Below the pieces are notes generated by a model. It worked only from the letters and a program-made list of their open reading frames with translations, was not told where the DNA came from and did no database searches. Of a stretch of 64,000 nt of DNA, positions 8,585 to 40,500 are shown piece by piece. The stretch's first letter is position 1. Every line of letters begins with the position of its first letter. The stretch comes from Eunapius fragilis. Its lineage: Eukaryota; Porifera; Demospongiae; Spongillida; Spongillidae. A program made the translations under genes and the position numbers. The DNA lies in contig OY811971.1 in NCBI GenBank assembly GCA_963681505.1, positions 11,917,242 to 11,981,241 on the forward strand, written 5' to 3'.

Positions 8585-11032
8585 ATAAATCCCTAGGTCC
8601 TGATTTCAACATCCTACCCTTCCTTTTCTCCTTCCCAAAGGGCACTGCTGCTGGCCCCTCAGGTCTCAGGGTACAACATCTAATTGATGCTGCACAAATC
8701 CCTCTTCCAATTTCCATTGGCTCATTCCTGAGGGATATTGTCAACCTCCTTGCAGCAGGCAAAGCTGCATTGTCAGTTGCCAGATTTCTAGCGGGCGGAA
8801 GCCTCACCGCTTTGAACAAGTTCCCCACCTGATATCAGGCCTATTGCTGTTGGGGAAACTCTCAGAAGGCTAACAGGAAAGTGCTTGTGCTCTTTAGTGA
8901 AAGATAAAGTGTCCAGTTTTTTTGAGCCCCATCAGTTTGGTGTAGCCTGTTCACATGGCACAGAAAAAGTGGTACACGGCCTTCGAAAGTGCATCGAAGA
9001 ACACTCGGGTGATGAAGATTTGTCATCCTGAAAGCAGATATGAGAAACGCTTTCAACCTTATTTCCAGGCTGGCTCTTCTATCTGAATGCTCCACCTTTT
9101 TCCCAGAACTCCTTCCATGGGCAAGTTGGTGTTATGGTTCACACCCTTATTTGTGGCACCCCCTACAACATCTCACTTCTGAGGCAGGTGGGCAGCAGGG
9201 AGATCCATTAGGCCCTTTGTTTTTCGCTTTGGTTCTACACAAGGTCATTGCCGCCATCGATGCAGATGATGACTGCTTTCGTCTCATCCTTCAGGTATGG
9301 TACTTGGATGATGGGGCCCCAGACAAGCTGTTCTGCGGGCGCTCTCCATAATTGAAGACCTTGCTCCATCACTGGGCATTTTCATCAATTTATCCAAATG
9401 TGAACTATTTAGCCGTAGCGATATTTCCATGTTCCCTTCTGCTATGAAAGCTTCACATGTACATGTACCACACCTAGACATTCTTGGTACTCCCAGGGGT
9501 GGATATAAGGTTTCAGAAATGGCCTGACATAATGTCAGACCATATTGGGAGTTGGTCGGACATGGTCTGACATTGCTAATTATAAATATGTCCTTCTAAA
9601 TACCATTATCATAAACCTCAGTATGGTGTAAATAAAACATTTCCCGTACATGTAACTATGCATTTTATGATCGTTGGCTTCATAGATGTACACGCAGTAC
9701 TGTAGCGCTACGTAGCAAACTTTGCTAATCTAGGTAACTATGAATTTAATACCACTTCATGTGGTTTATGTCTATACAAACGATTTTCAGTGGTTATGTT
9801 TGTACAAACAATCAATTCCACACTTGTGAATTACATTAATAAACGATCGGCACTTTTGTCCGACAATGGGAAGTTTGGGCTGACATTGTACAGTTTTGGT
9901 CGGATTTTGTCCGATGTCCGACCACTATATCCACCCCTGTACTCCTATTGGGGACTATCTTTACTGCACTGGGTTCTTTGCCGCGAAGCGTGCTGAATTC
10001 ACAAAGTTGCTATCTAAGTTGGAAGATGTTTCAGATATTGACCCACAGGTGGCCTTTAATTTGCTACGGCTTTGCAGTGGTTTTTGTAAGATGGTGCATT
10101 TAGCCAGATCAACCCCCCTAGTGTGGCTTCTGATTCTCTGAAGATACTTGACTTGGACTTAAGGAGTTGCTTCTCTAAGTGCTTATCTTTAGATCTCACC
10201 GAGGCCGCCTGGTGCCAATCTCAACTGGGCATAAGGTTTGGAGGTTTCGGCCGTCGCTCACTCTCTCACCACTCGAGTGCTGCCTTCATTGTATCCTTTT
10301 GTTCATCTGGTTTTGCCACTGCAAATAACCATCATCTGATTCATGCGGTTAATACCTTCAATAGCTTAGTCTCTACCTCAGATGCCATATCTCCAGAGTC
10401 TGCCATTGAGTCTCCTCCCTCACAGAGATCTCTCTCCCATACGCTGGATAGCTCGATTTACAGTAGTTTGTACGACTCAGCTTCTCCAGCAAACAAAGCT
10501 CGCCTCCTCTCTACCTCTGCTTCCTTGGCCACTTCATGGGTTTCAGTCTTTCCTTCGGGTGAGCCTGACCTGCATCTTGACCCTAGTGAATTCCGCACAG
10601 CTATTTCGTGGTGGCTGGGTTTAAAAACAACAGCCTCCTGCTGTCTGCTATGTCCTGAAATAGCTTTGGACTCCCTGGGGCATCATGCATTGTCATGCAG
10701 ACGAGGTGGTGATGTGGTTCTCCGACATAACCAGCTGCGAGATGTCTTTGTAGATTTTTGCCACAAGGCAAACCTTGGAGTGAGGATCGAGGCAGGTAGT
10801 GCACTTACCCCTGACCTTTCTAGGTCTCGTCCTGCGGATGCCCTAGTGAACAATTGGATAGGTGGAATCTCTGCCGCTTTTGATGTAACTGTGACGTCTC
10901 CTCTTACACCTGTGTCACTTCGTGAATCAAGCGTTACTGCAGGAACAGCTGCACTACTGGCAGAGCAGAGGAAGCACCAGGCGAATGACCCCAAGTGTGA
11001 TACCCTTAGATGGAAATGTATCCCTCTTGCTG
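8585..11032 (+). mobile_element. LINE copy A, restriction-like-endonuclease type, decayed
   Basis: Reverse transcriptase of the non-LTR type: a start like FPKGTAAGPSGLRVQHLID (8635), an AFNLISRLALLSECS helix (9048), the EAGGQQGDPLGPLFFAL block (9182) and the active site WYLDDG (9300). After the thumb region, at about 10640-10740, comes a CCHC knuckle, CLLCPEIALDSLGHHALSC, then RH. The C-terminus (10825-10910) carries RPADALV then AAFDVTVTSPL, the P-x-D and D-x-T-V pattern of the endonuclease of R2/NeSL-type LINEs. Frames change several times and a 446-bp MITE is inserted at 9494-9939. Homology stops at about 11032, where unrelated sequence begins. A matching LINE 3' end at 16113-16215 may be the other side of the same copy. 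Confidence 0.8.
9494..9939. mobile_element. 446-bp MITE inserted in LINE copy A
   Basis: Begins CAGGGGTGGATATA and ends TATATCCACCCCTG (perfect inverted ends). It is flanked by a 6-bp direct repeat, TACTCC, at 9488-9493 and 9940-9945. Inside are several TGTCCGAC and GTCGGAC words in both orientations near each end. No coding capacity. The CAGGGGTG ends are hAT-like, but hAT normally duplicates 8 bp. Confidence 0.8.
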
Positions 11033-11092
11033 GCCTATGGTACATAAGTATAATTGAGAAAACACTAGTATACAATTGTAAAAGTTCAAAGT

Positions 11093-12538
11093 TCAAACAA
11101 TGGAGCGCACAGCAGTCTCCTTTCTAAGAAACATAACAGCATAAGGGTTGGGCCAATCAGGAGGATCAAAATACTTCTCCAGGGCATCATCTGGCAGCGT
11201 AGCTGGCCAGTTTTCATTAATGTGTGGAAATAGGGCACGTAGCTTCAGATATAGATCGGCAATAGCAGCTTTAGTTTGGTTTACAGTCCATATGAGATCA
11301 CCGGACCATGTGTGGTTATCTGGGACTGCCCCCAAGAAACGCTCAGAGCTGAATCTAGATTGCAGGGCGGAGTCCCACTGTGTTCCGTATATTGTCTCAG
11401 GACCGTAATTAGAGGTAAAGATCTGCATGTAAGGCCTGATCAATCTGGTAAAGCCGCCCTTGATTTCCTTGTCAACAGGGTTAATATCGCATAATGTCTT
11501 CATTCCACAAAAGTCCATTTTATTTGATGGACTCATCTCTTCAATATGGACAATTTTCTGCATGACGTACCCCTTCCACCATTTATAGCGATCGGTTTGA
11601 GGCACGGTGTACACCTGTTGGTGTAATAGATGTTTGCAAAAGTAATGAATCAGTTTACTTTTTCCCCCTCCCGCCTGGCCTTGGATCCAAATATTGATGA
11701 CAGATTTTGCTGGGGGATCAGGAGGTAGTAGATTCATTTTCAGTTGTTCAAAGCCAGCTGCATAGGAGGTATAAAATGGAAACAATCTGCACAAGATGCG
11801 AAATTCTATGTAGGGGTCTTTAACATCAATTCAGCAATTTCTCTAAACACTCCATTAGGCTCCTTAGCATTTCTACCCTTTTGTCCCTGCACTGTTAATA
11901 TGCGTTTAGCTTTAACCTTGGACTCTAGATCCCAGTAATTTGGGTTTCCTTGTACATTTTCTGAAGGACCAATATCGATTGCTTCCGCTTGTGACTGGAT
12001 AAATCCGACAGTTTTAAGATAGCTGAGCAGTTGTTGGGTGTCAGATTCAACGACTCCGCTTCCTTCTGTAGGTGCGTCAACGATTCCGATATCCGGCAAA
12101 TCTCCAAGGCTTGAATCGGGGCCTGGCTCGGGAATGATGTCACGCAAGCCAGCTGTACCGTCTGATCCGACATCTCGTCCAGATTCGCTAGCTCCACCAT
12201 CGATATAGTCGGATCCACGCCCAGCTGTTGCATGATAGGGACCAAGATCTCTGGCACGGGGGGCGCTATGTCCATGTCCACCTCTTGGCTCGGTATGGGC
12301 ATTCCAGAACTCTCCAATTCCTCCTTCCTTTCCAATGTACTCGAGCATGTCGTCCCAGTCGGACTCATCGTTGTTTGACCAAAATCCTCCGAACCATCCG
12401 TGCAAGGTATCTCCTGTCCAACGCAACGACGTTTGGATCGCGACGTGGATGTGCGGTCCTCTTCCTTCTTGATATTCGGGACCACCCACTGCATACCGGA
12501 TTGCGTTACCACTTTCAGCCCACTCCCAAAGTCTAAGG
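11093..12538 (-). mobile_element. Rep gene of CRESS-DNA virus type, fossil
   Basis: Minus-strand coding remnant of a rolling-circle replication protein. The N-terminal part shows an HUH endonuclease signature (GPHIHVAIQ at about 12450) and a catalytic-tyrosine motif (EYIGKEGG at about 12330). After a low-complexity, acidic linker comes a superfamily 3 helicase with Walker A (GQAGGGKS, about 11670), Walker B (IVHIEEM, about 11545), motif C (IFTSNYG, about 11420) and an arginine-finger region (ALQSRF, about 11360). HUH followed by an SF3 helicase is the layout of Rep in Cressdnaviricota. This copy is partial and broken, with about two breaks. It abuts a gypsy pol fragment at about 12538. No capsid gene is recognisable nearby. 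An HUH DNA transposon is the alternative. Confidence 0.75.
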
Positions 12539-15350
12539 ATGCCCTTTGGTGTTACCGGTGGACCGAGTTCTTTTCAGCGGCTAATGGATAAAGTGCTTCT
12601 TGGCCTTTCCTTTGTCACCAGCTACATAGACAATGTTCTAATTCACTCCAGTTCTATGGAACTTCACCAATCCCATCTACGTCTTGTGTTCAATCGCTTA
12701 GCGAAGGCAGGCCTGACATTGAGGGGTTCAAAGTGTAAAATTGGCCTTGACAAGGTGCAATACTTGGGTCATATCTTCTCCAAAAATGGTATGGCTCCAG
12801 ATACAGACAAGATCGCTGTGGTGCAGAACTGGCCAACACCAACAGACGTCACAGAGGTTCGGCAGTTCCTGGGGTTGGCATCATACTATCGACGATATGT
12901 GAAAAACTTTGCAGATATTGCAGCTCCTCTTCATCATCTCACACAAAAAGCAGTGGAGTTCAATTGGGAGGAGAACTTTCAGCGATCATTTCAGGTGCTG
13001 AAAGATGCATTGACTCAAGCGCCTGTCTTATGCTATCCCTGCTTCAAGAAGGGATTCACCCTACAGACAGATGCCAGTGCGGTGGGGATAGGAGCAGTGC
13101 TGGAGCAGGATGGCCACGTGATTGCTTATGCCAGCCGCAGTCTAACCTCACCTGAAAGACAGTACAGTGTCATCGAAAGGGAATGCCTGGCTGTTGTCTT
13201 TGCAGTCAAACACTTCAGGCACTACTTACTGGGACGACCATTCAGCCTACACACTGATCATCAGCCACTACAGTGGCTTTCTGCTCAGAAGATGGAGGGC
13301 AGGTTGTGCAGATGGGCTCTTGCTCTTCAAGAGTTTGATTTCGAGATCAAATACAGGCGAGGATCATCAAATGCCAATGCAGATGCTCTCTCCCGTGTAC
13401 CTGCAATACAAGTAGAAACAAGTGAAATATGCTCTGCTACACTGATAACCCCAGAACTAACCACATGCAGGATCCAAGAAGAACAACAGAGGGACGCTGT
13501 ACTGCAGCAAGTAATCCAACACCTTACATCACAGAACAGTACATCCAAGCCAAACTGGAAGCAGTTTCCACTAAAGCGTTACTCTCAGCTACTGAAGCAG
13601 TTACATCTGGTTGATGGTGTCCTGTGTCGCAGATTTGTTCCAGGTCCATTAGAAGAAACTATCACTGTTCCGGTGATGCCCACTTCACTTCAGGAAGTGG
13701 CCCTCCACAGCAGCCATGACATCATAAGTGCAGGTCATCAAGGCACTGAAAAGACCCTAGACAGATTGAAGCGGATGGCCTATTGGGTTGGAATGGCAAA
13801 GGCAACAGAGCTGTACTGTCGGAGTTGTAATGTGTGTCAGCAATCGAAACTTCCAATGCCACTAGCAGTACCTATGACTAATGTTCCAATAGGTCGACCT
13901 TGGCAAATGTTAGCTGTTGATGTTTTGGAAGTTCCAATGTCTGGTCATGGAAATCGATATCTGCTGGTACTCCAAGATTATTTCACCAAGTGGGCTGAAG
14001 CAGTACCTATGCCTGACCAAACAGCGGAAAGGATAGTTCGAGCACTGATTGATATCTTCTCTCGCTTTGGCATCCCTGAGATCCTTCACTCTGATCAAGG
14101 AAGGAATTTTGAGAGCACAATCTTGAAGAAAACCTGTGCAGCATTTGGCATCGTCAAGTCACGAACTACTTCATATCATCCACAAGGAGATGGTATGGTG
14201 GAACGTCTTAACAGAACTCCGTTGCAGCTGTTAAGAGCCTATGTTCAACAGCAGTCTGATTGGGAATGCCAGCTTCCACTCCTGCTCTATGCCTATCGTA
14301 CGGCTCGTCACACATCAACCCACCTGAGCCCGTTTTTACTGCTAATGGGAAGAGAACCTGTGCTTCCAATCATGCCATCACTGGCGGGAGATGATGGGAA
14401 GGGTCACGATCCACACAGTTATGAACATACCCTGACAGTCAGATTGGCAGAGCTGAGGAACCTGGTGGAGTGCCATATCACACAGGAAGCACAACGGCAG
14501 AAAGCGTTCTATGACAGCACAACTAAAAGCAGAACCTTCAATGTTGGAGATGCTGTCTGGCTACATGTGCCAACAGCTGGCAAGCTGGATGCGAGATGGG
14601 AAGGAGGATGGACTGTGAAGGAGGTGCTGTCCCCAGTAAACGTTGCAGTTGAACACACCACGACAGCAAGGACTCGTGTGGTGCATGTTAACAGACTCCA
14701 GCAACGTATTGTTAGAGGAGAGGTTGAGGCACATGGTGAAGATCATGATCAACATGGTGTACCAGTAGCTGACTGGGAAGCACCTCACATCGAATACTTC
14801 ATCCTTCCACCTCAACAAAAGCAGCAAGCTGAAGTCGGAAGGCGCTACCCTCAACGTGTTCGGCACCCAGTGTTGAGATACTAAGCTTGGGGTCAAGCTT
14901 AAAAAGATGGTGGGACGAATGTAATGTCACGTAAATCTAGTCTGGGGACTTGCAAATAACTAACTCCTCTTCCTTCCAACTACTGGGCCCTTTTCCTTTC
15001 TTCTCTTCTGCATATCTGTCTCTCCCTGGAGAGTCAAATCAACCATCTCCTATGTGTTAGTCCCCCATTATAAAAAGATGCCGCCAACCGCGTCCAGTGC
15101 CCTATTATGAGGCGTCGTTTTAGTTCGGGAATAGGTGCGTGCCGCGGTTTATCTGAAAGGCCAGTTACCCCATCGGCATGCATGCTACGGGGAGTACTCC
15201 ATGCATGCTGTTAGATAGAATCGACTAACCCCTCCAGTCTCCAAAGTCACTGGAAAAACCCACATCAGCCTGAACGTAGTGTGTGTAGTCCCGTAAGGTC
15301 TGTTGCGATGGTAGCTGTATGCCAGACTCTCGCAATACCTCATAGTACAC
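12539..15350 (+). mobile_element. second Ty3/gypsy element, partial fossil
   Basis: A 781-codon open frame (12539-14884) starts inside reverse transcriptase (MPFGVTGGPSSFQRLMDKVL, then YIDNVLIHS). It continues through RNase H (TLQTDASAVGIGAVL; NADALSRVPA), the HHCC zinc finger (HQGTEKTLDRLK, then CRSCNVCQQSK), the DDE integrase core (LHSDQGRNFES; HPQGDGMVERLNR) and a chromatin-side tail. A putative 3' LTR starts TGTAATGTCACG at about 14920 after a purine tract and runs to roughly 15350; its end is not certain. The 5' LTR, gag, protease and the front of RT are not present; the copy begins where the Rep fossil stops. What remains reads with few or no breaks, so it is younger than the gypsy copy at 2.7-7.8 kb. 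It is unrelated in sequence to that copy. Confidence 0.85.
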
Positions 15351-23791: not shown

Positions 23792-24506
23792 ACAATTATA
23801 ACGGCCGGACACCGGACATTTGTCCGGCTAATTTAGTCTATTGTCCGGCGGTCAATTAACCATCCGGACAAAATGGTCGGACAAAAACGTGCAAGTGATT
23901 TTGATACTGGAAGCAGTGAAAGCCCTGGTCCTAGCTGTAAAAAAACACCTAAGTGACAAGTAACGAAAGCAACCTTCGATAGATGGCAACGAGATAATGA
24001 TCGCGATCACCAAACGCTCGTCTGGCTTCGCTGTGAACTGGAACGCGATAATGTCCACGTAGCTGTTTTGCTATGTGATGCGCGCAAGCGCCACAAGGAC
24101 AGCATTTTATCGTTGCGAAACTTCCAGATGACCTGGATTACTGGTACTATTAGGGACGTCTCCTAACTAATTTGGAAAAGTTAAAGTCATTTTAATTTGA
24201 CGTGAGGGGGGGGGGGGGGGGGGGGGGGGGCGTGACGTTATCCGATGTACTGACCAAAAAAATGGCGGCCGGCCTCCCACAACCTTCAATATCAATGACG
24301 TTATGAGGTGGGGAGAGGGGGGGGGGGGGGGGTTATAATGAAGCGTCAAAATGACGTTAACTTTTTGGAGACGCCCCTTTGTTTTGTGTCTACGTACTAA
24401 AAAAAAATGTCCGGCCATTTTTGAAACATGTCTGGGCAAACACATCTACCGCTTGACATTTGTCTGGCCATCCCAAAAAAGTTATAATTGTCCCTGTACT
24501 CGCCGG
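23792..24506. mobile_element. Mutator-like MITE nested in the gag-type ORF
   Basis: The inner ends carry ACAATTATAAC at the left and GTTATAATTGT at the right as inverted repeats. A near-perfect 9-bp direct repeat (ACTCGCAGG at the left, ACTCGCCGG at the right) flanks it. Length of the duplication fits Mutator-like elements. It contains TTGTCCGG and CCGGACA words and a further nested element at about 24152-24378. Confidence 0.6.
24152..24378. mobile_element. small MITE with long G tracts, nested twice
   Basis: Imperfect inverted ends: left GGGACGTCTCC and further in AAGTTAAAGTCATTTT; right, on the other strand, AGGGGCGTCTCC and AAGTTAACGTCATTTTGACG. Two poly-G runs (about 24207-24230 and 24319-24333) sit inside. 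Confidence 0.55.
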
Positions 24507-24861
24507 ATGAGGATCATTAAAATTGCAGACAGATCGGGCCACGGTTGGAATATGATCGCAGAATACGAAAACGATGAACTTACTCTTGACTCGGGCGATG
24601 AGAAGAGGCTTATAAGGGCTGAAATGGAGGCGGAGAAGAAGGCAGCAAGAAAGAAACTTAAGCTGCCAGCAGCCATCGCGCCCGCCGCCGCAGGTGATGT
24701 TGTCCCACCGATATGCAGGTTCGGCGCAGCTCCTCCAGTTCCAGCGAAGATAGGCACTTGTTTTGGCTGCGGGGAGTTCGGCCATTTGAGGCGATATTGC
24801 TCGAAGCCGGCTGCATTGACAAGCTCGGCATCGGTTGTGTAAGCGAAATGATGGTTGCACG

Positions 24862-24962
24862 TAGTCTCGTACCCAGACCCAGATTCCCAACAGCTGCGGA
24901 TGGATTACATCACCGCTACGTGGAAAGAGGGTCTGGCGAAATGCCCAACAAAAGTCGTTCTA
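24862..24962 (+). repeat. left 101-bp terminal inverted repeat
   Basis: Perfect complement of 32938-33038. It contains an internal inverted pair (CCAGACCC and GGGTCTGG) that could fold. Confidence 0.9.
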
Positions 24963-27331
24963 GGGTAATAAATGATACGTCATCAAACACGGTGCAATAT
25001 GACGTCGCATGGTGTTAGAAACGTCATTTAGCTCCGTATAGAGTGAGTATCATGATTATAATTGATCGGAAATGCTTCGCTGCAAGCTTTGTGTAGATCC
25101 CGTCTTGTGTTCCAAAAACAGGAGGCAGCTTGCTAGCCTATCATCAAAAAATTGCAGAGCAGTACTGACGGATTTAGCTTGCGAATGTGGGCAATCAAAA
25201 AGCAATGTTGCAAAGGACTACGGAGAAGGCTATCTGTGCAAAAAGTGCTTCAATGCAATTGCCAAGTACTCAGCCCTTCAAGAGGAAGTCCAGAACCGTA
25301 AACGTGAGCTGCTGTCAAAGTTGTCTCGTCACGTGGGTTCATCGGCTACGCATGAAACGCAAGGCACAAAGCAATCGGCCGATACTGTTCCTCACGCCGC
25401 ACATGCTGTCAAAGTAGGTCCGGATTAGGCTATTTCCCATGGTAATATTTCCTCTCTATATAGGTTGTTGTTATGTATCAAGATTATGAAAAGAAGTACA
25501 ATCTGTCTCCAACAAGAGAACCAATTGGGAAGTGCTTAGGTCGTAACGCGAAGCGGGCATTTGCGAAGCATTCATTGGAGTCTCCAGCACTGCTCGAACA
25601 TTTTCTGCTTCGAATCAATAAGATCATTCGTAAAGAGATGAGTCAGGTTCTTCGTGATACTGCATACACCATTAAAAAAGCTCAACGAGGCAGCCCTCTC
25701 GTGGGCGAACGAATACCGCACATTACGACAGAAAGCACCAGTTCTTGTACGATTTCTTGATGCTTGCATTCCAAAAGAGAGTTCGAGAAGACTATGTTCC
25801 ATCATGACTTGTATTGGAGTTTTGGCCAAGTCTCATTGTAGTAATACGCTTCTTCATGTTTTCATATCACTGGTTCTCAGTTATGGACATGCATGCAGGA
25901 AAGCTGGTATGTGCATTGGGTGTCAAGCTTTTTATGGTTCATGCTATACTTATAGGTGTATTCAAGGCTCCAGAAACTTGGCTTATGTCTCTCTGACAGC
26001 AGCACACGAGCACTGCTAGACATCCTAGGAACTGACCATGATCAAGTTGTTAAGAACTGGGTTTCAGAACTATCTTTACCAACCAATCAGGTAAGTACTA
26101 GCTCATGTAAGGGTTTCAGCATGTATATAAACTTGATGGCAATCTATCAACAGGGTATTATGTCATTTGCTCCAGCAACATTATTTGATTCAGATGACAC
26201 ATCCAATTCTACTTCTAGCTTATCCGCTGTATTCAATGAACAGTCACAGTCTAATTCTTTTCATGCATCAACTAACTCCAGTCTCATTAGTTCCCTCATC
26301 ACCACCACCACCACCACAACTGGCATCATCCTCCTCATCATCATCATCATCGTTTTGTGACAGCACTTCTCCTGTGGGTCCAGGCGACTTTTCTCTAGTC
26401 ACTGCTGAGTCTTCACCCTCCTGTGACACTCATACTAGCGCCAGTGATGAAGATACTGCTCCTTTAGCTGCAGCAGGTATGATATCATTTGTAGTTAAAT
26501 TTAAAAGGTATGCATGACTGCTCATCTTCATGCACTATTAGAGCAAAACAGTCCTCAAGATGGTTCCCCAGTGCTTGATTGCAGTGAATGGTATGGATTT
26601 AAGCTCATTGGTGACAATATTCATAAGAACATAAAACCCCGAGACATGAGGATCAACAACCAAACAAAATCTTTGCACTATTTCCATGCCTTTGCAGTGA
26701 AGGACAGGATAAACTTCAGTGACATCGCTAACAATGCTGAACTGGTTTTTCAAGATGACATAGACTACGGTGTTTTCTATCCAAATGATGATGATGATGC
26801 GCAGTTGGTTTCTAACTTTCAAACACTTGTGACCAGAATATTTTTTGAGCATATTCCTCATCTTCAACATTTGTTTGGCAAAGTGACACATAACATCAAA
26901 CACAAGTATTCAAAGAACATGAGTATTAAATCAACTGTGGTATGTTCTTCCCATCTCTGCCCGTGCTTTTTAGGTTTAGTATATCTTTGTTAATTTTATT
27001 ATACAGGTCCCATTAGGAGTCATTCTTAAGAATGAGAATATCTTAAATGATATGGTCGATATTTTGGATGTACTTCATCAATATGTACCCAAGACCACCA
27101 CCACCCAGACCTACGATACTTGTGCAGAGGACGGAAGCACGAGAACAACTGAGGTCCACATTGATCACATCAACCCTATTCTCATAGGTGGAGATCAGCT
27201 GACAGTGGCAAGGGTTCGAGGAAGTCAGGATGCTCTCCTAAACTCTGAAAGTGGTACACAGCGTGTTCAGGGACTTATACCAGTCATAGAAGACTGGCAT
27301 GCCAAGATGTGCTATATGCAGGTATACTGCC

Positions 27332-27604
27332 CATGTTGATCATGTTTTTGATACCAGACTAGACACTAGACTGTACACATGGTAATGTCCCCACCTAAGA
27401 GCATCTGCTCAGCAGCAGCATGCATGTTGATCATGTTTTTGATACCAGACTAGACACTAGACTGTACACATGGTAATGTCCCCACCTAAGAGCATCTGCT
27501 CAGCAGCAGCATGCATGTTGATCATGTTTTTGATACCAGACTAGACACTAGACTGTACACATGGTAATGTCCCCACCTAAGAGCATCTGCTCAGCAGCAG
27601 CATG
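27332..27604 (+). repeat. three identical 90-bp tandem repeats in a DUF6589 intron
   Basis: Unit begins TGTTGATCATGTTTTTGATA and ends in a CAGCAGCAGCATG run. The three copies appear identical, so the expansion is recent. They lie just after the donor at about 27321 and do not touch an exon. Confidence 0.9.
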
Positions 27605-28632
27605 CACATGATTTGAAGCATTGTTTAAGGCTTATTAATACTCCCTCTGTCCTCTGTCCCTTCCCTACCCCAAGCATTAGAATGTGTAAATAAGTCACTT
27701 CAATGAATTCACATTGGCACATTTTTTTGCACTTGTTCTGTTAATTGGCTACTTAGGTGGTGTGGAAGAGGCTGTACAACACCAGTTCAGGAGTGGATAA
27801 GGGAACCTTATTCCAACTGAGGAACCTTATAAACAGATGGAATGTTGTGTCTGACGTGAGTAAGGACACTGCTGCCTGCGAGGAGTTTATGGAGCTCATC
27901 ACTGTAGCACACATACTGTCAGCTGCAGTTCATATCACTGGTGTTCCAGACTTAGAAGGGCTATCAAAAAATATCTTATCCAGTGACAATCATTTTGCAG
28001 CTGTCAGCTCTATTGCTAAGACTTTGTGCTCTGATGTGGTCACCCTATCATTTGCTGCAAAGCCATCTACAGGTTCAGCCGACTGTGTTATGGAGTATGC
28101 CAAAGAAACTTTGTCACTAGGGTTGCTTCTTTTGGAGTTCAATGACGTCATTAGAGAAGGGGATAGTGTCAGAGTGTTGCGGTGCTGGAAGTTCCTATTC
28201 CTTTTTTTCCGTGCCGCAGGGCACAAAAATTATTGTATTGAAGCATTCCAGTTACTCATGCAGTACTACTACACACTAACATCTCGATGTGCTGAGCAAA
28301 TGCTGTGGGGCCGCTTTGTCAATAGTGTAGGTGGACCAGGTCACAATATTTCAGGAGACTTGCACATGGAACACCTAAATAGTGTCTATTTGCGCCCGTG
28401 TGCACAGGTGTGCATACTGTACGTACAGTGTGTACAGGTGTGCACACTTTATTTACACCTTCATATTTGTATTATTTTTTGGATTTATGTACCAAATTTT
28501 ACACCATTTTAAAGATGAATCATTGTAGAATATGGGGAAATACAGAATATTAGAAACTATTCAATAAACTCACAGTTTGTCGGCCTCAAAAACTACCCAA
28601 AAATTGTGCGCACGTGACATTTATAAATAAAT

Positions 28633-31072
28633 ATGGAGGGTGCACAGGACAGAGTTCTTAGGACCCGTCGTACCAGGTGAGTTATTAACAAACTGTCGCT
28701 TCGTAACTAAATGCCATGTTAATGAATTCATATCACTTTACAGTGCTGGCTGTTCTGTGGGTGCTAAACGGCAGCGCCGGGTTGAACCAGTCGCCAGTGA
28801 AGAAACGTTATTAGGCACTCAAGAAGACAGCGCAGCAGTCAGCCAGGGACTGCAAATAGGTTCTCAAGCTGTAGGGTGTGGCAGGGCAGTAAGTCGTGGA
28901 GCGCACACTGGTTCACAAGCTGTAGGACGTGGCAGGGCAGTAGGCCGTGGAGCGCACACTGGTTCACAAGCTGTAGGACGTGGCAGGGCACTAAGCCGTG
29001 GAGCGCACACAGGTTCACAAGCTGTAGGACGTGGCAGGGCAGTAGGCCGTGGAGCGCACACTGCTTCACAAGCTGTAGGACGAGGCAGGACAGTAGGCCG
29101 TGGAGCGCACACTGCTTCACAAGTTGTAGGACGTGGCAGGGCAGTAGGCCGTGGAGCGCACACTGGTTCACAAGCTGTAGGACGAGGCAGGACAGTAGGC
29201 CATGGAGCGCACACTGGTTCACAAGCTGTAGGACGTGGCAGGGCTTCTAGGGGACGGGATCAAGTTAGGGCACAGAGACACAGTGCTACTGTAGAGGAAC
29301 TCCCAAATGAAAGAGAAGGAAATATTGATGAGGATGAATCCGACATTGAGATAGAAGAGAATCCATTGCCACCTCATAGAGAAGATGTAACACATGTGTT
29401 TGTTCATGATGTGGGATGGAAAAAGAATGTAGGTCGTGCTTTATGCCCAGCAGCAACACATGGGTACTCTCAGCATGCCCAGTTCCATCTCTATAACGCT
29501 GCTGAAGCCACAGAATTTGAATACTTTCTGTCTTGTTTTCCATGTAACCTTGTGGATAGTATTTGCTGTTTGATGACCACAAAAGGCCAGGAGCAACGAA
29601 AAGGAGTCTCATTTAATGTTTCCATGGGGGAATACTGGCTCTTCATGGGTTATCTTATGTACATGTTATGCCATCCCATTGAACTCCCTATCCAAGACTA
29701 CTGGGAAGGACCCCTCTCAACAAAATATGGGGCATGTGCTAGCTTTGTCAAGCATGACCTGGGCAAGTTTGGACTCAGCTACAGCAGATTCCGCAGATTG
29801 ATGCAGGCTTTTACACTACCCCAGTATTCTGAATGTCAGACTGAGCCTTTCTCAGTGATCAGACGTTTTGTAGATGAGTGGAACCAAGTTATGCAGCGCT
29901 GTATTTCTCCAGGCCCCATTCTAGTTGTTGATGAAAGTATGGGGCAGTGGTTAGGGAAAGGGATGCCAGGGCTGATGTTTGTTGCTAGAAAGCCCACACC
30001 TAATGGAAGGGAGGCCCACACCACTGCTGACGCTGACACTGGATGTATCATCAACTATGAAATATATGAAGGCAAAACACTGATGGCTGACAAAAAGCAT
30101 GTCAGAGAACTTGGTGCTGGTACTGCTGCAGCTTTGAGACTCACTGCACCCTGGGCACATACAGGTCGTATAGTAATCCTGGATAGTGCTTTTGCAAGCC
30201 TGAAGGCTGCCAAAGTCTTAGCAGGTGCAGGGCTGTACATGGTTGGTAATGTTAAAACTGCACATACAGGCTTTCCAAAAGGTTGGTTAAATAGCCAGGT
30301 AACAGAGAGGGGTGAGCGTGCTTGTGCAACACATGCTTTCACTGTAAATGGTCAGCAGTGGGAGGCATTGGCTGCTCTGGATAAAGACAAGCAACCAATG
30401 TCCCTTATTGGGACAGCTGGAACTACTAACATGGGAAAAACACTTGTCCGAAACTTTACAGTGAGACACAGCAATGGTGATTGGCAGACCAGGACAGCAC
30501 ATTTGGAACAGTGGCATATTCATGAGATCTATCGCTCAAACTTCAATGTCATTGATAAACATAATGGCAAGAGGCAAGGCTTTGCATCTTTTGAAGAGAC
30601 ATGGAAGACACACAGCTGGTGGGTGCGGGACTTTCAAGTCTTGTTTGGCATTTCTGAAGTGAATGCTTATCTGCTGTGGGTAAAGTTCAAACCAGGACAA
30701 GAACAGGTCAGCTTGAGTAACTTTCGTATGCAGCTGTGCCATCAGATGCTGAATAACAAATGGATAATAGCTGAACGGAATGCTACATGTACATCCAGAT
30801 CAGTGCAACCCGAGCAAGATTGTAATGTAGTCCATCAACTGATCAACTGCGATAGAGGCCATTGCAGAATGTGTGGGCTTATCACTCGTTGGAGGTGCGA
30901 ATGTTTACCCCAGTCCCCTCCTGCACCTGGTGCTAAAAGAAGAAAGGACGGATCAGCAATGTATTTGTGTCCTGCATCTAAGCGTAGATGTTTGATACAA
31001 CACATTGAAGGGAATGCACCTGTGAATCTGAAGAAGCTAGCAGCATTACAGAAATGGAATGCACGAAACTGA
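28633..31072 (+). CDS. piggyBac-like transposase (DDE_Tnp_1_7 type), intact
   Basis: Two exons, 28633-28676 and 28744-31072 (GTGAGT donor, CAG acceptor), give 790 residues starting MEGAQDRVLRTRRTS. A basic patch (KRQRR) is followed by about seven copies of a 17-residue Arg/Gly repeat (RAVGRGAHTGSQAVGRG), then an acidic linker. The DDE core follows. Candidate catalytic aspartates are at about residues 411 (ILVVDESMGQW), 495 (RIVILDSAFASLKAAK) and 619 (FNVIDKHNGKRQG). KPTPNGREAHTTADADTGC lies between the first two. The C-terminus is a Cys-rich zinc-binding region (CRMCGLITRWRCECLP, CPASKRRC). No stop or frameshift was seen. The core resembles the piggyBac-derived proteins of oomycetes and sponges more than insect piggyBac. 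The RG-rich N-terminus is unusual for this family. Confidence 0.85.
28855..29245 (+). repeat. 51-bp coding tandem repeat
   Basis: About seven and a half copies of a 51-bp unit (17 codons, in frame), with a few synonymous and replacement changes such as SRG for GRG and TAS for TGS. It forms the Arg/Gly-rich N-terminal domain of the transposase. Confidence 0.9.
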
Positions 31073-31794
31073 CATTGAACTGATATAATAGTCCTGCTTG
31101 CTTAGATTGTGACCGTATTTAACCTGATTGTGTAATGAGTGTTGCTTTTACAACACCTGTCCAATGATTGTGTGAAATTTACATACTGTGTTATGCTCAA
31201 GCATTACAATTGAAGTCTAGATCTGTAACCATGCATACTTGCATGTGCAATGTTAAAGTGTGCACAAGTGTACACACTGTACTGCCAAATTCAACACAAA
31301 AAATTTAAACAAGTGTACTCAGCTGATTTAATACACAAGTAATAGTACTTACTGTCATCTATCAGTATCAACATTCAACTACACAAAATACATTATGGCT
31401 GTTTTGAATTTAACAATGTGCACACCTGTACACAATTTAAAATGCCAGGGCCCAGACACTGCTAGTGAAATAAAAGGAATTCATTTACATTGCATCGGAA
31501 TAGTAAAGCATATGTATCAACTTACTACCCACTTTTCATTTGCAGTCCACATACTTTGACATGTGCCTTTTAAGATGCAAATTTTCGTCATACAATAGTA
31601 ACTGAAGCTGCTCCATTATCATAGGATAGGCTGCATATTTTAGGACCACAGTTCTACTACTCATCAGTGCATCAATGGAGAATAACATATATTAATTTCA
31701 CAGCCACTGAGTTTAATATGAGGGATCTAATGATTCAAATTGTGAATGAGGTAAAGCATGCACGGGTGTACACACTTTCCGAAGCAAATAGACA
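31073..31794. other. 3' non-coding end of the piggyBac-like element
   Basis: AT-rich, with repeated TGTGCAC/GTGTACAC words; no gene. Confidence 0.6.
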
Positions 31795-32224
31795 ATAGGA
31801 TCCTGAAAGATACTGTGAGTCATCTTGGTGCCAACAAGACCCCAAAATCCATAGTAAGGGCTGCTAAAGCATTGGGTCCTTTGAAAGATATTTTAGCAGA
31901 ATTCGACAAGATAACTGGTGTATGGTTTACAAGCAAGCATTGTAGAAGATCAGAGAAAGAAGATCTCCTGAAAATAGTTGCAGAATTAAATCAAAATGAA
32001 GTGTTCCACTATCAACCAGGAAGAAAGCATCTGCTATTTCCTTCCATGAAATGCAATGGTCTGCTAATGTGTATAGATAGACCCAAGCTGATGTCTTGGA
32101 TGTCAGTAAAGGCGGAGAACATCCTTCGCCAAACACCTTTTACTCATTAGATTATGAGTGCATCTGCATACATGCATGTAATCCTCATTCTTGATTAAAG
32201 TAACAATTAGACATAGTGAAATAG

Positions 32225-32820
32225 TTACATCGGAAATGAATTACAATTACATTTATCACAACGAAAGTTACTAGAACACACATCACAGCAACTGCAGTCA
32301 TTATTACTTTCATATGTGCAGTCAAAGTATGACATGAGTCTAGCTCTTCTGCACACATCGTTTCCAGTGCAGTATCATTTTACCTATGTAAAGGACTTGA
32401 ACTTCGCCTCTTAAAATCCTCTCCTGCTGAGCACGATCATTCATTTCACTGCTAAGATAGGCTGCCGATAACCCTTTAGCGTTAAGAGTAGCAACCTATA
32501 CAGTAAAGAACCAAACTGTGCATGCACCGTTCATTAAAGAACATCGAGCGTACCTGGTCCTTCATTAAGGCTATCAGTGGCGATACAACAATCACTATGC
32601 TGCTGTCACGTTGGTAAAGGCAGTCAAAGGCGAACGGCAGAACTGTGAAACAGAGCGACTTTCCACTTCCAGTCGGCAAAATAACGAATATGTCATTCCC
32701 TTCCATGAAACTTTTGATCGCATTCAACTGATTCAGACGGATGGAAGCGTAGCCCAGCCTTTGACCAGATTGCAAGATTATAGAGTCAAGATTAACGTCT
32801 GCCATAGAGCTAGAGGACAT
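32225..32820 (-). pseudogene. RecQ-like helicase gene, internally deleted
   Basis: Minus strand. Exon 1 (32820-32554) has a motif 0-like GYASIRLNQLNAIKSFMEG, Walker A (ILPTGSGKSLCF) and motif Ia (VVSPLIALMKDQ). Exon 2 (32495-32384) encodes VATLNAKGLSAAYLSSEMND and ILRGEVQVLYI, as in RecQ. The frame then meets, with no intron possible in the few bases between, a C-terminal zinc-binding block (about 32378-32228: CRRARLMSYFDC, then CSCCDVC, then CDKCNC) typical of RecQ. The DEAH box and motifs III-VI are missing, so this is an internal deletion derivative. Its tail-to-tail position against the DUF6589 gene, within the TIRs, marks it as cargo of the element. Confidence 0.8.
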
Positions 32821-32937
32821 ATGTACAGGTATCTACAGGTATGCGTAATTGCTTTTGTCAAATAATTAATATTATGTATTACAATCTGACGTCACGGAGC
32901 ACTGCATTCTGATTGTGCACCTAAAATCAGGCGCACG

Positions 32938-33038
32938 TAGAACGACTTTTGTTGGGCATTTCGCCAGACCCTCTTTCCACGTAGCGGTGATGTAATCCAT
33001 CCGCAGCTGTTGGGAATCTGGGTCTGGGTACGAGACTA
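32938..33038 (-). repeat. right 101-bp terminal inverted repeat
   Basis: Exact reverse complement of 24862-24962, followed by the GGTTGCACG duplication at 33039-33047. Confidence 0.9.
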
Positions 33039-33241
33039 GGTTGCACGTTGCTTGAATATGATTTTTGAAATTACAATGCAAAAAAATAATAATAATTTTT
33101 TTGATCGCGTGCCTATGGGTTGACAGCGATGTCTGTATAGCTCACAAAAACAGGACAATTGCGCCCATTCAGCGCATAAACCAGCTCAAACTTATTGTTG
33201 TGAGCACAAAGGCGCATTCGTTACGCGTTTGATGGTATAAA

Positions 33242-38489: not shown

Positions 38490-40500
38490 AGTTGAAAAGT
38501 CCAAAGCCAGTGACTTCTTTGCCCCCTACCAGTTTGGAGTGGCTTGTGCAGCAGGAGCAGAAAAGGTTATCCATGGTCTCAGGTCTTGCATGGATGATCA
38601 CTGGACAGATGAGAACTTCACAGTGCTGAAAATAGACATGCGTAATGCATACAATCTTGTATCTCGTCAGGCCCTCTTGGATGAGTGCAGCATTCAATTC
38701 CCAGAGTTGCTCCCTTGGGCATCATGGTGCTATGGCCAACACCCAGTATTGCAGCATGTATTGGGTACTATAAGCTCAGAGGTGGGTGTCCAGCAAGGAG
38801 ACCCTTTAAGTCCAATGTACTTCTGCCTAGTACTACACAAGATTGTGTCTGCTATTGTATCAGATGAAAATTGCTCCAGTTTGCTGTTTCATGCATGGTA
38901 CCAAGATGAGGTGTGGTTGCTGGTCCTAAGCATGCAGTTTCACGTGCACTTACCATCATCCAAGAGCTTGGCCCTCCATTGGGTCTGTTTATTAATGCAG
39001 CAAAATGTAAACTCTTCAGTATTAGTGATCTCAGCATGTTCCCACCAGAAATGAAGAGATCTAGTGTACCTCATTTGGAGATCCTGGGAGCTCCTATTGG
39101 GGGTGCAATTTTTTGTGCCAAAATTGTATCTCAGAAGTGTGCTACAGCCTCCAAATTACTTTCCCAACTGGAAGAGGTTGGTTCTGTGGACCCCCAAGTT
39201 GCTCTGCTTCTGTTACGACAGTGTGGCGGATTTTGTAAGCTTGTGCACCTGGCAAGATCTACACCCCCTTCTCTCATTGCTGAAGGACTGGAGTACTTCG
39301 ATAATGATGTTCGTCACTGCTTTGCTCTATCTACAGCTGTAGACACCACAAAGAGTGCTTGGAAACAGGCACAACTCAGCCTTAGCAGAGGTGGTTTAGG
39401 GGTTCGCCGGCTTTCAGAACATTCATCTGCCTGTTATATAGCATCTCTAAGCATGGCTGGCATGGGCTCTGAGACCAATCAGCACCTGTTGAATGCCATC
39501 GATAAGTTTAATGAACATGTTTCTAATGAGGATACAGTTACATTGGAAACTATCAGGGAGACATCATGCCGCCAAAAGATGCTTTCGAACAAATTGGAAG
39601 ACAGCCTGTTTGCACAGCTTTTTTCAAAATTATCATTGCCTGACAGAGCTCGCCTTTTATCAGTTTCATCTCCCCACGCTGCAGCATGGCTTTCCACAGC
39701 TTCTTCTCCTGGTCTCAATCTGCAGTTGGAGCCTTCTGAGTTCCAAGCAGCCTTACAATGGTGGCTTGGTGTTAGTATCTCAGGCTCTCAGGGTGCCACA
39801 TGTCCTCACTGTCCAGCTCATTCTTTGGACCCTTTACTCCACCATGCTTTGACATGCAAGCATGGGGGCGATGTGGTCATTCGTCACAACAGGCTTCGGG
39901 ATGTATTTGCAGAGTCATGTAGGAGAGCCTGCATAAGTGCACAGGTGGAGGTTGGGTACGGCTTTACATCTGAGGAGCGCCACACGCATGTCCTGGCAGC
40001 AAACTGGATGATGGGAAAGCCTGCTGCATTTGACTTTACTGTCACATCACCGCTAACCTCAAGTAATTTACCTGAAGCGAGTGTGACAGCAGGGTCTGCA
40101 GCCATTGCAGCAGAGGAGAGAAAGCATAAGGCCAATGACTCCAAATGTGCAGAACTGGGTTGGGTATGCATCCCAATAGCTGTGGAGACCTATGGGTGTT
40201 GGGGCACTGAAGCAAAGTGGGCAATATCGCAGCTAGCCTCTCGCTTGGCCACAACGTCAGAACTGCCCAAAGTCTGCATCTGTCACAGCCCTATATCAGA
40301 GGTTGAGCATGACCCTTGTTAGGGCAAATGTGAGGGCTCTGCTGCCAAGGGCCATCTCAGACACAGGCTACTGATATATTATTTAGTCTAGGTGGTAGGT
40401 AATTTAACGTTATGTGCTTGTTTATCTGTATTGTACAAGTTTTTGTCCGAATGGTTCACATTTAATTTTTTTTTTTTTTTTTTTATTTGAATAATAATAA
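38490..40500 (+). mobile_element. LINE copy H, best-preserved reverse transcriptase and endonuclease
   Basis: 5'-truncated at the palm: ASDFFAPYQFGVACAAGAEK, MRNAYNLVSRQALLDECS, GVQQGDPLSPMYFCLVLHK and the active site WYQD. A 1-bp deletion inside the second aspartate codon (about 38914) shifts the frame. From 38913 it is open for 469 codons: thumb (VALLLLRQCGGFCKLVHLAR), LSRGGLGVRRLSEHSSACYI, CCHC knuckle (CPHCPAHSLDPLLHHALTC), VIRHNRLRDVFAESCRRACI, then the endonuclease (VLAANWMMGKPAAFDFTVTS). A second 1-bp shift lies near 40270, before the end LSMTLVRANVRALLP. The element ends in poly-T and (AAT)n at 40468-40502. Only two frameshifts make it the youngest copy here. Confidence 0.85.

Follow-up and report, generated by a model that had tools for sequence, protein, structure and literature searches.

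What kind of element is the 8177-bp unit at positions 24862-33038 of the 64,000-nucleotide stretch of Eunapius fragilis DNA analysed here (contig OY811971.1 of assembly GCA_963681505.1; hereafter the window), and what does its DUF6589 gene, whose product belongs to a Pfam family of unknown function, contribute to it? The unit is a DNA transposon bounded by terminal inverted repeats (TIRs). The left arm (24862-24962, + strand, starting TAGTCTCGTACCCAGACCC) and the right arm (32938-33038, - strand) are complementary over 101 bp without a mismatch, and reading of the flanks gave the same 9-bp target-site duplication, GGTTGCACG, at 24853-24861 and 33039-33047. Both features had been reported in a preliminary description of this DNA and were confirmed. 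A simple composition model gives p = 4e-6 for an exact match of 9 bases at a fixed boundary and p ~ 4e-61 for the inverted repeat, so that a chance inverted repeat was ruled out. The converging gene pair placed between the TIRs by the same description, DUF6589 on the + strand and a RecQ-like helicase on the - strand, was recovered by Pfam, the helicase as a remnant only. We consider it very probable that the unit is a degenerate AcademH-type cut-and-paste DNA transposon in which DUF6589 is the DDD/E transposase. Within the Academ superfamily of DNA transposons AcademH is reportedly one lineage, and the primary paper on it is said to be that of Kojima from 2020. Elements of this lineage have already been described in animals and fungi; the new point here is the likely identity of DUF6589.

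Related copies are abundant in the genome (219 Mb in 24 contigs were searched). The 101-bp end is found in at least 40 places (40 matches scored of 1427 candidates). Transposon ends start TAGTCTCGTmCCCAGACCC, and the first 19 bp of the end have 1,109 exact occurrences (563 + 546), against 0 + 0 for a control read backwards. Besides the window, the analysis covered 18 places selected because they surround such ends or DUF6589 loci. Three further large copies share these ends, on contigs C15, C1 (12.9 kb) and C6 (14 kb), and all enclose DUF6589 and the helicase. The C15 copy (C15:1401644-1408436, locus L029) and the 12.9-kb copy (C1:12124044-12136912) carry the same genes as the window, and their main DNA stretches are 97.6-99.3% identical to it. 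Among gene-bearing copies, the six shortest measure 4.8-5.3 kb. The preliminary description had also asked whether DUF6589 genes occur without such TIRs, and elements with a diverged DUF6589 were found to retain similar ends. Its proposed check, that full-length copies enclose both genes, held for the large copies; many short ones share the ends, and one of these, 139 bp long, had its boundaries read. This copy (C1:12137481-12137619, or 13982-14120 of the joined L030 and L031) has the same ends and an exact 9-bp duplication, CTATTGTAT, and lies about 570 bp away from the 12.9-kb copy. Many ends are closely paired, and short copies are therefore common; they would most simply be internally deleted copies moved in trans.

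For the analysis of duplication lengths in the window and the 18 other places, ends of the TAGTCT[C/G][G/T] or TAGCCTCG type (TAGTCTCG type) were paired if they differed from each other at no more than 3 of 19 positions. An exact 9-bp duplication flanks 9 of the 13 terminal pairs, while one pair has an 8-bp duplication, one a 3-bp duplication and two have none. L044 is located in a G run, where no duplication can be read. Two 5301-bp copies, L040 (C8) and L041 (C20), occupy distinct sites with distinct 9-bp duplications and differ at 13 positions; with so few differences and different duplications, both have probably moved recently. L041 is inserted in a repeat. Its flanks, joined with a single copy of the 9-mer, had 153 candidate matches; 40 were scored and all but one of them (39) crossed the junction, so that empty sites exist for this copy. 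At least 218 of the 220 bases are covered in 30 of the 40, with an identity of 98% in the best. For the window copy, the same kind of query yielded nine matches: two to its own flanks, three through the junction (83-87% identity), one that ends just before it and three to the far right only. The left flank of the window transposon recurs elsewhere in the genome. A stretch of the window at 40122-40213 is 79% identical to the repeat that hosts the L041 insertion.

The association of DUF6589 with a helicase is likewise a recurrent one. The 116 DUF6589 matches were merged into 90 loci, and the helicase was searched with one 116-aa query, for which 150 of 829 candidates were scored. A helicase match on the opposite strand, downstream and within 12 kb, was present at 38 of the 90 loci, whereas 200 shuffles (contigs without a listed length set to 6 Mb) averaged 0.37 such loci and never exceeded 4. 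A single locus out of the 90 had a helicase match in another arrangement. Because only these 150 candidates were scored, 19 loci (the window and the 18 other places) were read directly. All 19 contain helicase sequence, convergent with and downstream of DUF6589 (N- and C-terminal pieces in 18, the C-terminal piece only in L034), and the gene pairing noted in the preliminary description recurs between such ends. The most diverged locus, L048, also holds helicase pieces, at 29-36% identity. Judged by its database matches, the helicase is RecQ-like: in the PDB, the C-terminal part from the C15 copy matched WRN and RecQ-family entries best, and Pfam gave DEAD and Helicase_C, with RecQ_Zn_bind slightly below the cut-off.

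Three acidic motifs are conserved in DUF6589. The aspartate of the GDN/VDN motif is present in 33/33 sequences with letters at that position, the aspartate of GGD/AGD in 33/35 and the glutamate of EHLN/EHVN in 39/39 (counts from 35, 36 and 39 sequences, some being the same copy fetched twice). For the protein set, copies with stops, with more than 60 gaps or with more than 90% identity to one already kept were dropped, leaving 11 proteins, 6 of which form alignment A1. In the first sequence of A1 the motif residues are D9, D179 and E427, with EDWH at 211. Since the D, D and E motifs are conserved, DUF6589 is plausible as a DDE transposase and is probably that of AcademH; the earlier proposal that it is a transposase thus gains in plausibility, on sequence grounds. 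If this is true, a Pfam family of unknown function gains a probable function, and genes annotated as DUF6589 become candidate transposon genes. A search for DUF6589 relatives gave pattern-matching stretches in viral contigs (7 and 39) and genome contigs (28), none of which was confirmed. No literature naming DUF6589 was found in open-licence papers, which does not show it to be unpublished.

The preliminary description had held that the unit matches no known superfamily, a claim that was not supported. According to one paper (PMC10045372), AcademH encodes a helicase and makes 9 or 10-bp target-site duplications, AcademX encodes a nuclease and makes 3 or 4-bp duplications, and duplication lengths in the Academ lineages are related to which of the two is encoded. 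Both AcademH traits were found here, the duplication in the 9/13 pairs with exactly 9 bp and in the L041 empty sites, and the helicase in the 19/19 loci read, where it is RecQ-like by PDB and Pfam. The units described here are also TIR elements with a likely DDD/E transposase, and by that description no difference from AcademH was found. AcademX, a fellow Academ lineage, was ruled out: in contrast to its nuclease and its 3 or 4-bp duplications, the duplications here are of 9 bp, and XPG_I does not occur within 100 kb of any DUF6589 locus, its two matches in the genome lying 106 and 173 kb from the nearest one. DUF6589 could also represent a separate DDE superfamily that shares the helicase and the 9-bp duplication with AcademH by convergence, which we regard as unlikely. 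In its favour, DUF6589 is without detectable similarity to solved proteins, and the comparison with AcademH was by description only. Against convergence, two traits match the AcademH description, and the 4.8-5.3 kb of the shortest gene-bearing copies is near the mean of 5565 bp that PMC10294476 gives for curated bivalve Academ elements. A pairing of transposase and RecQ helicase is described for other elements too: in PMC9587614, KolobokH and Kolobok-1_CCri combine a DDD/E transposase with a RecQ helicase, which Kolobok-1_CCri carries on the complementary strand, as here. The helicase therefore fits KolobokH as well and, being shared with AcademH, is not diagnostic. That the unit is KolobokH-like, with a Kolobok transposase, is nevertheless very unlikely, given that Kolobok duplications are described there as 4-bp TTAA, whereas exact 9-bp duplications flank most pairs here and none has a 4-bp TTAA.

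Less probable still is a Mutator-like element (MULE) whose cargo would be DUF6589 and the helicase. MULEs (MuDR) classically have long TIRs and make 9-bp duplications, both seen here, and of the 45 matches to MULE domains in the genome two are near a DUF6589 locus, at distances of 5.5 and 9.6 kb. However, the other 43 all lie more than 12 kb from each of the 90 loci, Pfam detected no MULE transposase domain in the open reading frames (ORFs) scanned, 8 from the window and 10 from L029 and L040, and the joint presence of helicase and DUF6589 in every locus read is unlike chance cargo. In the scanned window ORFs only one domain bears the name of a transposase, DDE_Tnp_1_7, in ORF 28631-31072 (E = 3e-38, Pfam), which the preliminary description had missed. 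It is hardly conceivable that this protein moved the whole unit: it sits in a separate 3412-bp insert (28383-31794, + strand) with its own 11-bp ends, TGTCTATTTGC, and ATAG flanks, and neither the C15 copy nor the 12.9-kb copy, both of this family, has a match to the nested stretch, L029 having an uninterrupted counterpart. DDE_Tnp_1_7 transposases are of the IS4/piggyBac type; the flanks of the nested element read ATAG (AATAG if one base is shared) versus the TTAA expected of piggyBac. A 51-bp tandem array lies inside the nested transposase ORF, at 28859-29244.

Several observations weigh against the assignment to AcademH. It is based on the duplication length and the helicase, as published descriptions give them, and descent of DUF6589 from Academ transposases is presumptive. 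Run against the PDB with E values of up to 10, the DUF6589 profile gave 0 matches, and among other Pfam families none was better than E = 0.04, which leaves an RNase H fold hypothetical. In the search that scored 150 of 829 candidates with one query, 51 of the 90 loci lacked a helicase match at distances up to 12 kb, and the 19 loci read were picked by their ends or by the best DUF6589 score, some being close copies of one another. An exact 9-bp duplication is wanting in 4 of the 13 terminal pairs and was not found in the flanks of L037, L042 and L048; the 9-bp duplications themselves are real. Finally, two of the three paralogues that cross the window junction, L053 and L054, are without the element but 7 bp shorter at the site. 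The empty site of the window copy is for this reason only approximate, and the empty-site check proposed earlier has its clean proof in another copy, L041.

If the AcademH reading with DUF6589 as catalyst is right, DUF6589 would recognise the transposon ends, excise the element and join it to a target whose two strands are cut 9 bp apart; gap filling by the host would then produce the 9-bp duplication. Movement would be cut-and-paste and not replicative, and membership in the Academ superfamily would extend to the descent of the protein. The convergent RecQ-like helicase of the transposon would probably serve to unwind DNA, either at the ends or at strand-transfer junctions. Acting in trans, these proteins could also move internally deleted copies that retain the ends. 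With young copies (13 differences in 5301 bp), 1,109 exact 19-bp ends and clean empty sites for L041, the Eunapius fragilis genome would be a good place to test the role of a transposon-borne helicase.

Compared with its relatives, the window copy itself shows three kinds of damage, namely a deletion in an early DUF6589 exon, the nested element in DUF6589 and the loss of about 840 bp of helicase. The 5' part of the DUF6589 gene (25066-28382, + strand) was delimited by ORFs, Pfam PF20231 and motifs from the comparison with other copies. Its N-terminus is Cys-rich (ORF 25066-25428). The first D motif, in ORF 26505-26993, reads GDNIH in the window as against GDNID in most copies; the second, GGDQLT, lies in ORF 26980-27339, and the E motif, DLHMEHLN, at 27757-28382. 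PF20231 (DUF6589) was matched on the + strand at 26980-27339 (E = 7e-12) and 27757-28512 (E = 1.4e-28). The early-exon deletion, seen by eye in the ORFs, is small and changes the frame. The 3' tail of the gene, severed by the nested element, lies at about 31795-32150 (+ strand) and corresponds to the last exon of the C15 copy, which is uninterrupted. On the - strand, the N-terminal part of the helicase remnant (32482-32832; PF00270, E = 1e-11) contains the start of the DEAD domain with LPTGSGKS, and a 42-aa C-terminal piece was located at about 32249-32374 (tblastn, 100% over 42 aa); the roughly 840 bp absent between the two were seen as a BLAST gap against the C15 copy. Three exact 91-bp tandem copies lie between DUF6589 exons (27332-27606, + strand). 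BLAST matches to this array differ for the C15 and 12.9-kb copies, so the 91-bp repeat number may vary between transposon copies.

Outside the transposon, ORF 24342-24842 has by eye a zinc-knuckle-like CFGCGEFGH and stops just before the left end; it gave no Pfam match. ORFs 10090-11124 and 38910-40319 look by eye like pieces of retroelements. Two overlapping ORFs on the - strand at 11096-12573 resemble, again by eye, a rolling-circle Rep with an SF3-type helicase. One of them (11096-11830) matched PF00910 (E = 2.7e-9) while the other half was without a Pfam match, and the region is possibly an endogenous CRESS-like Rep remnant.

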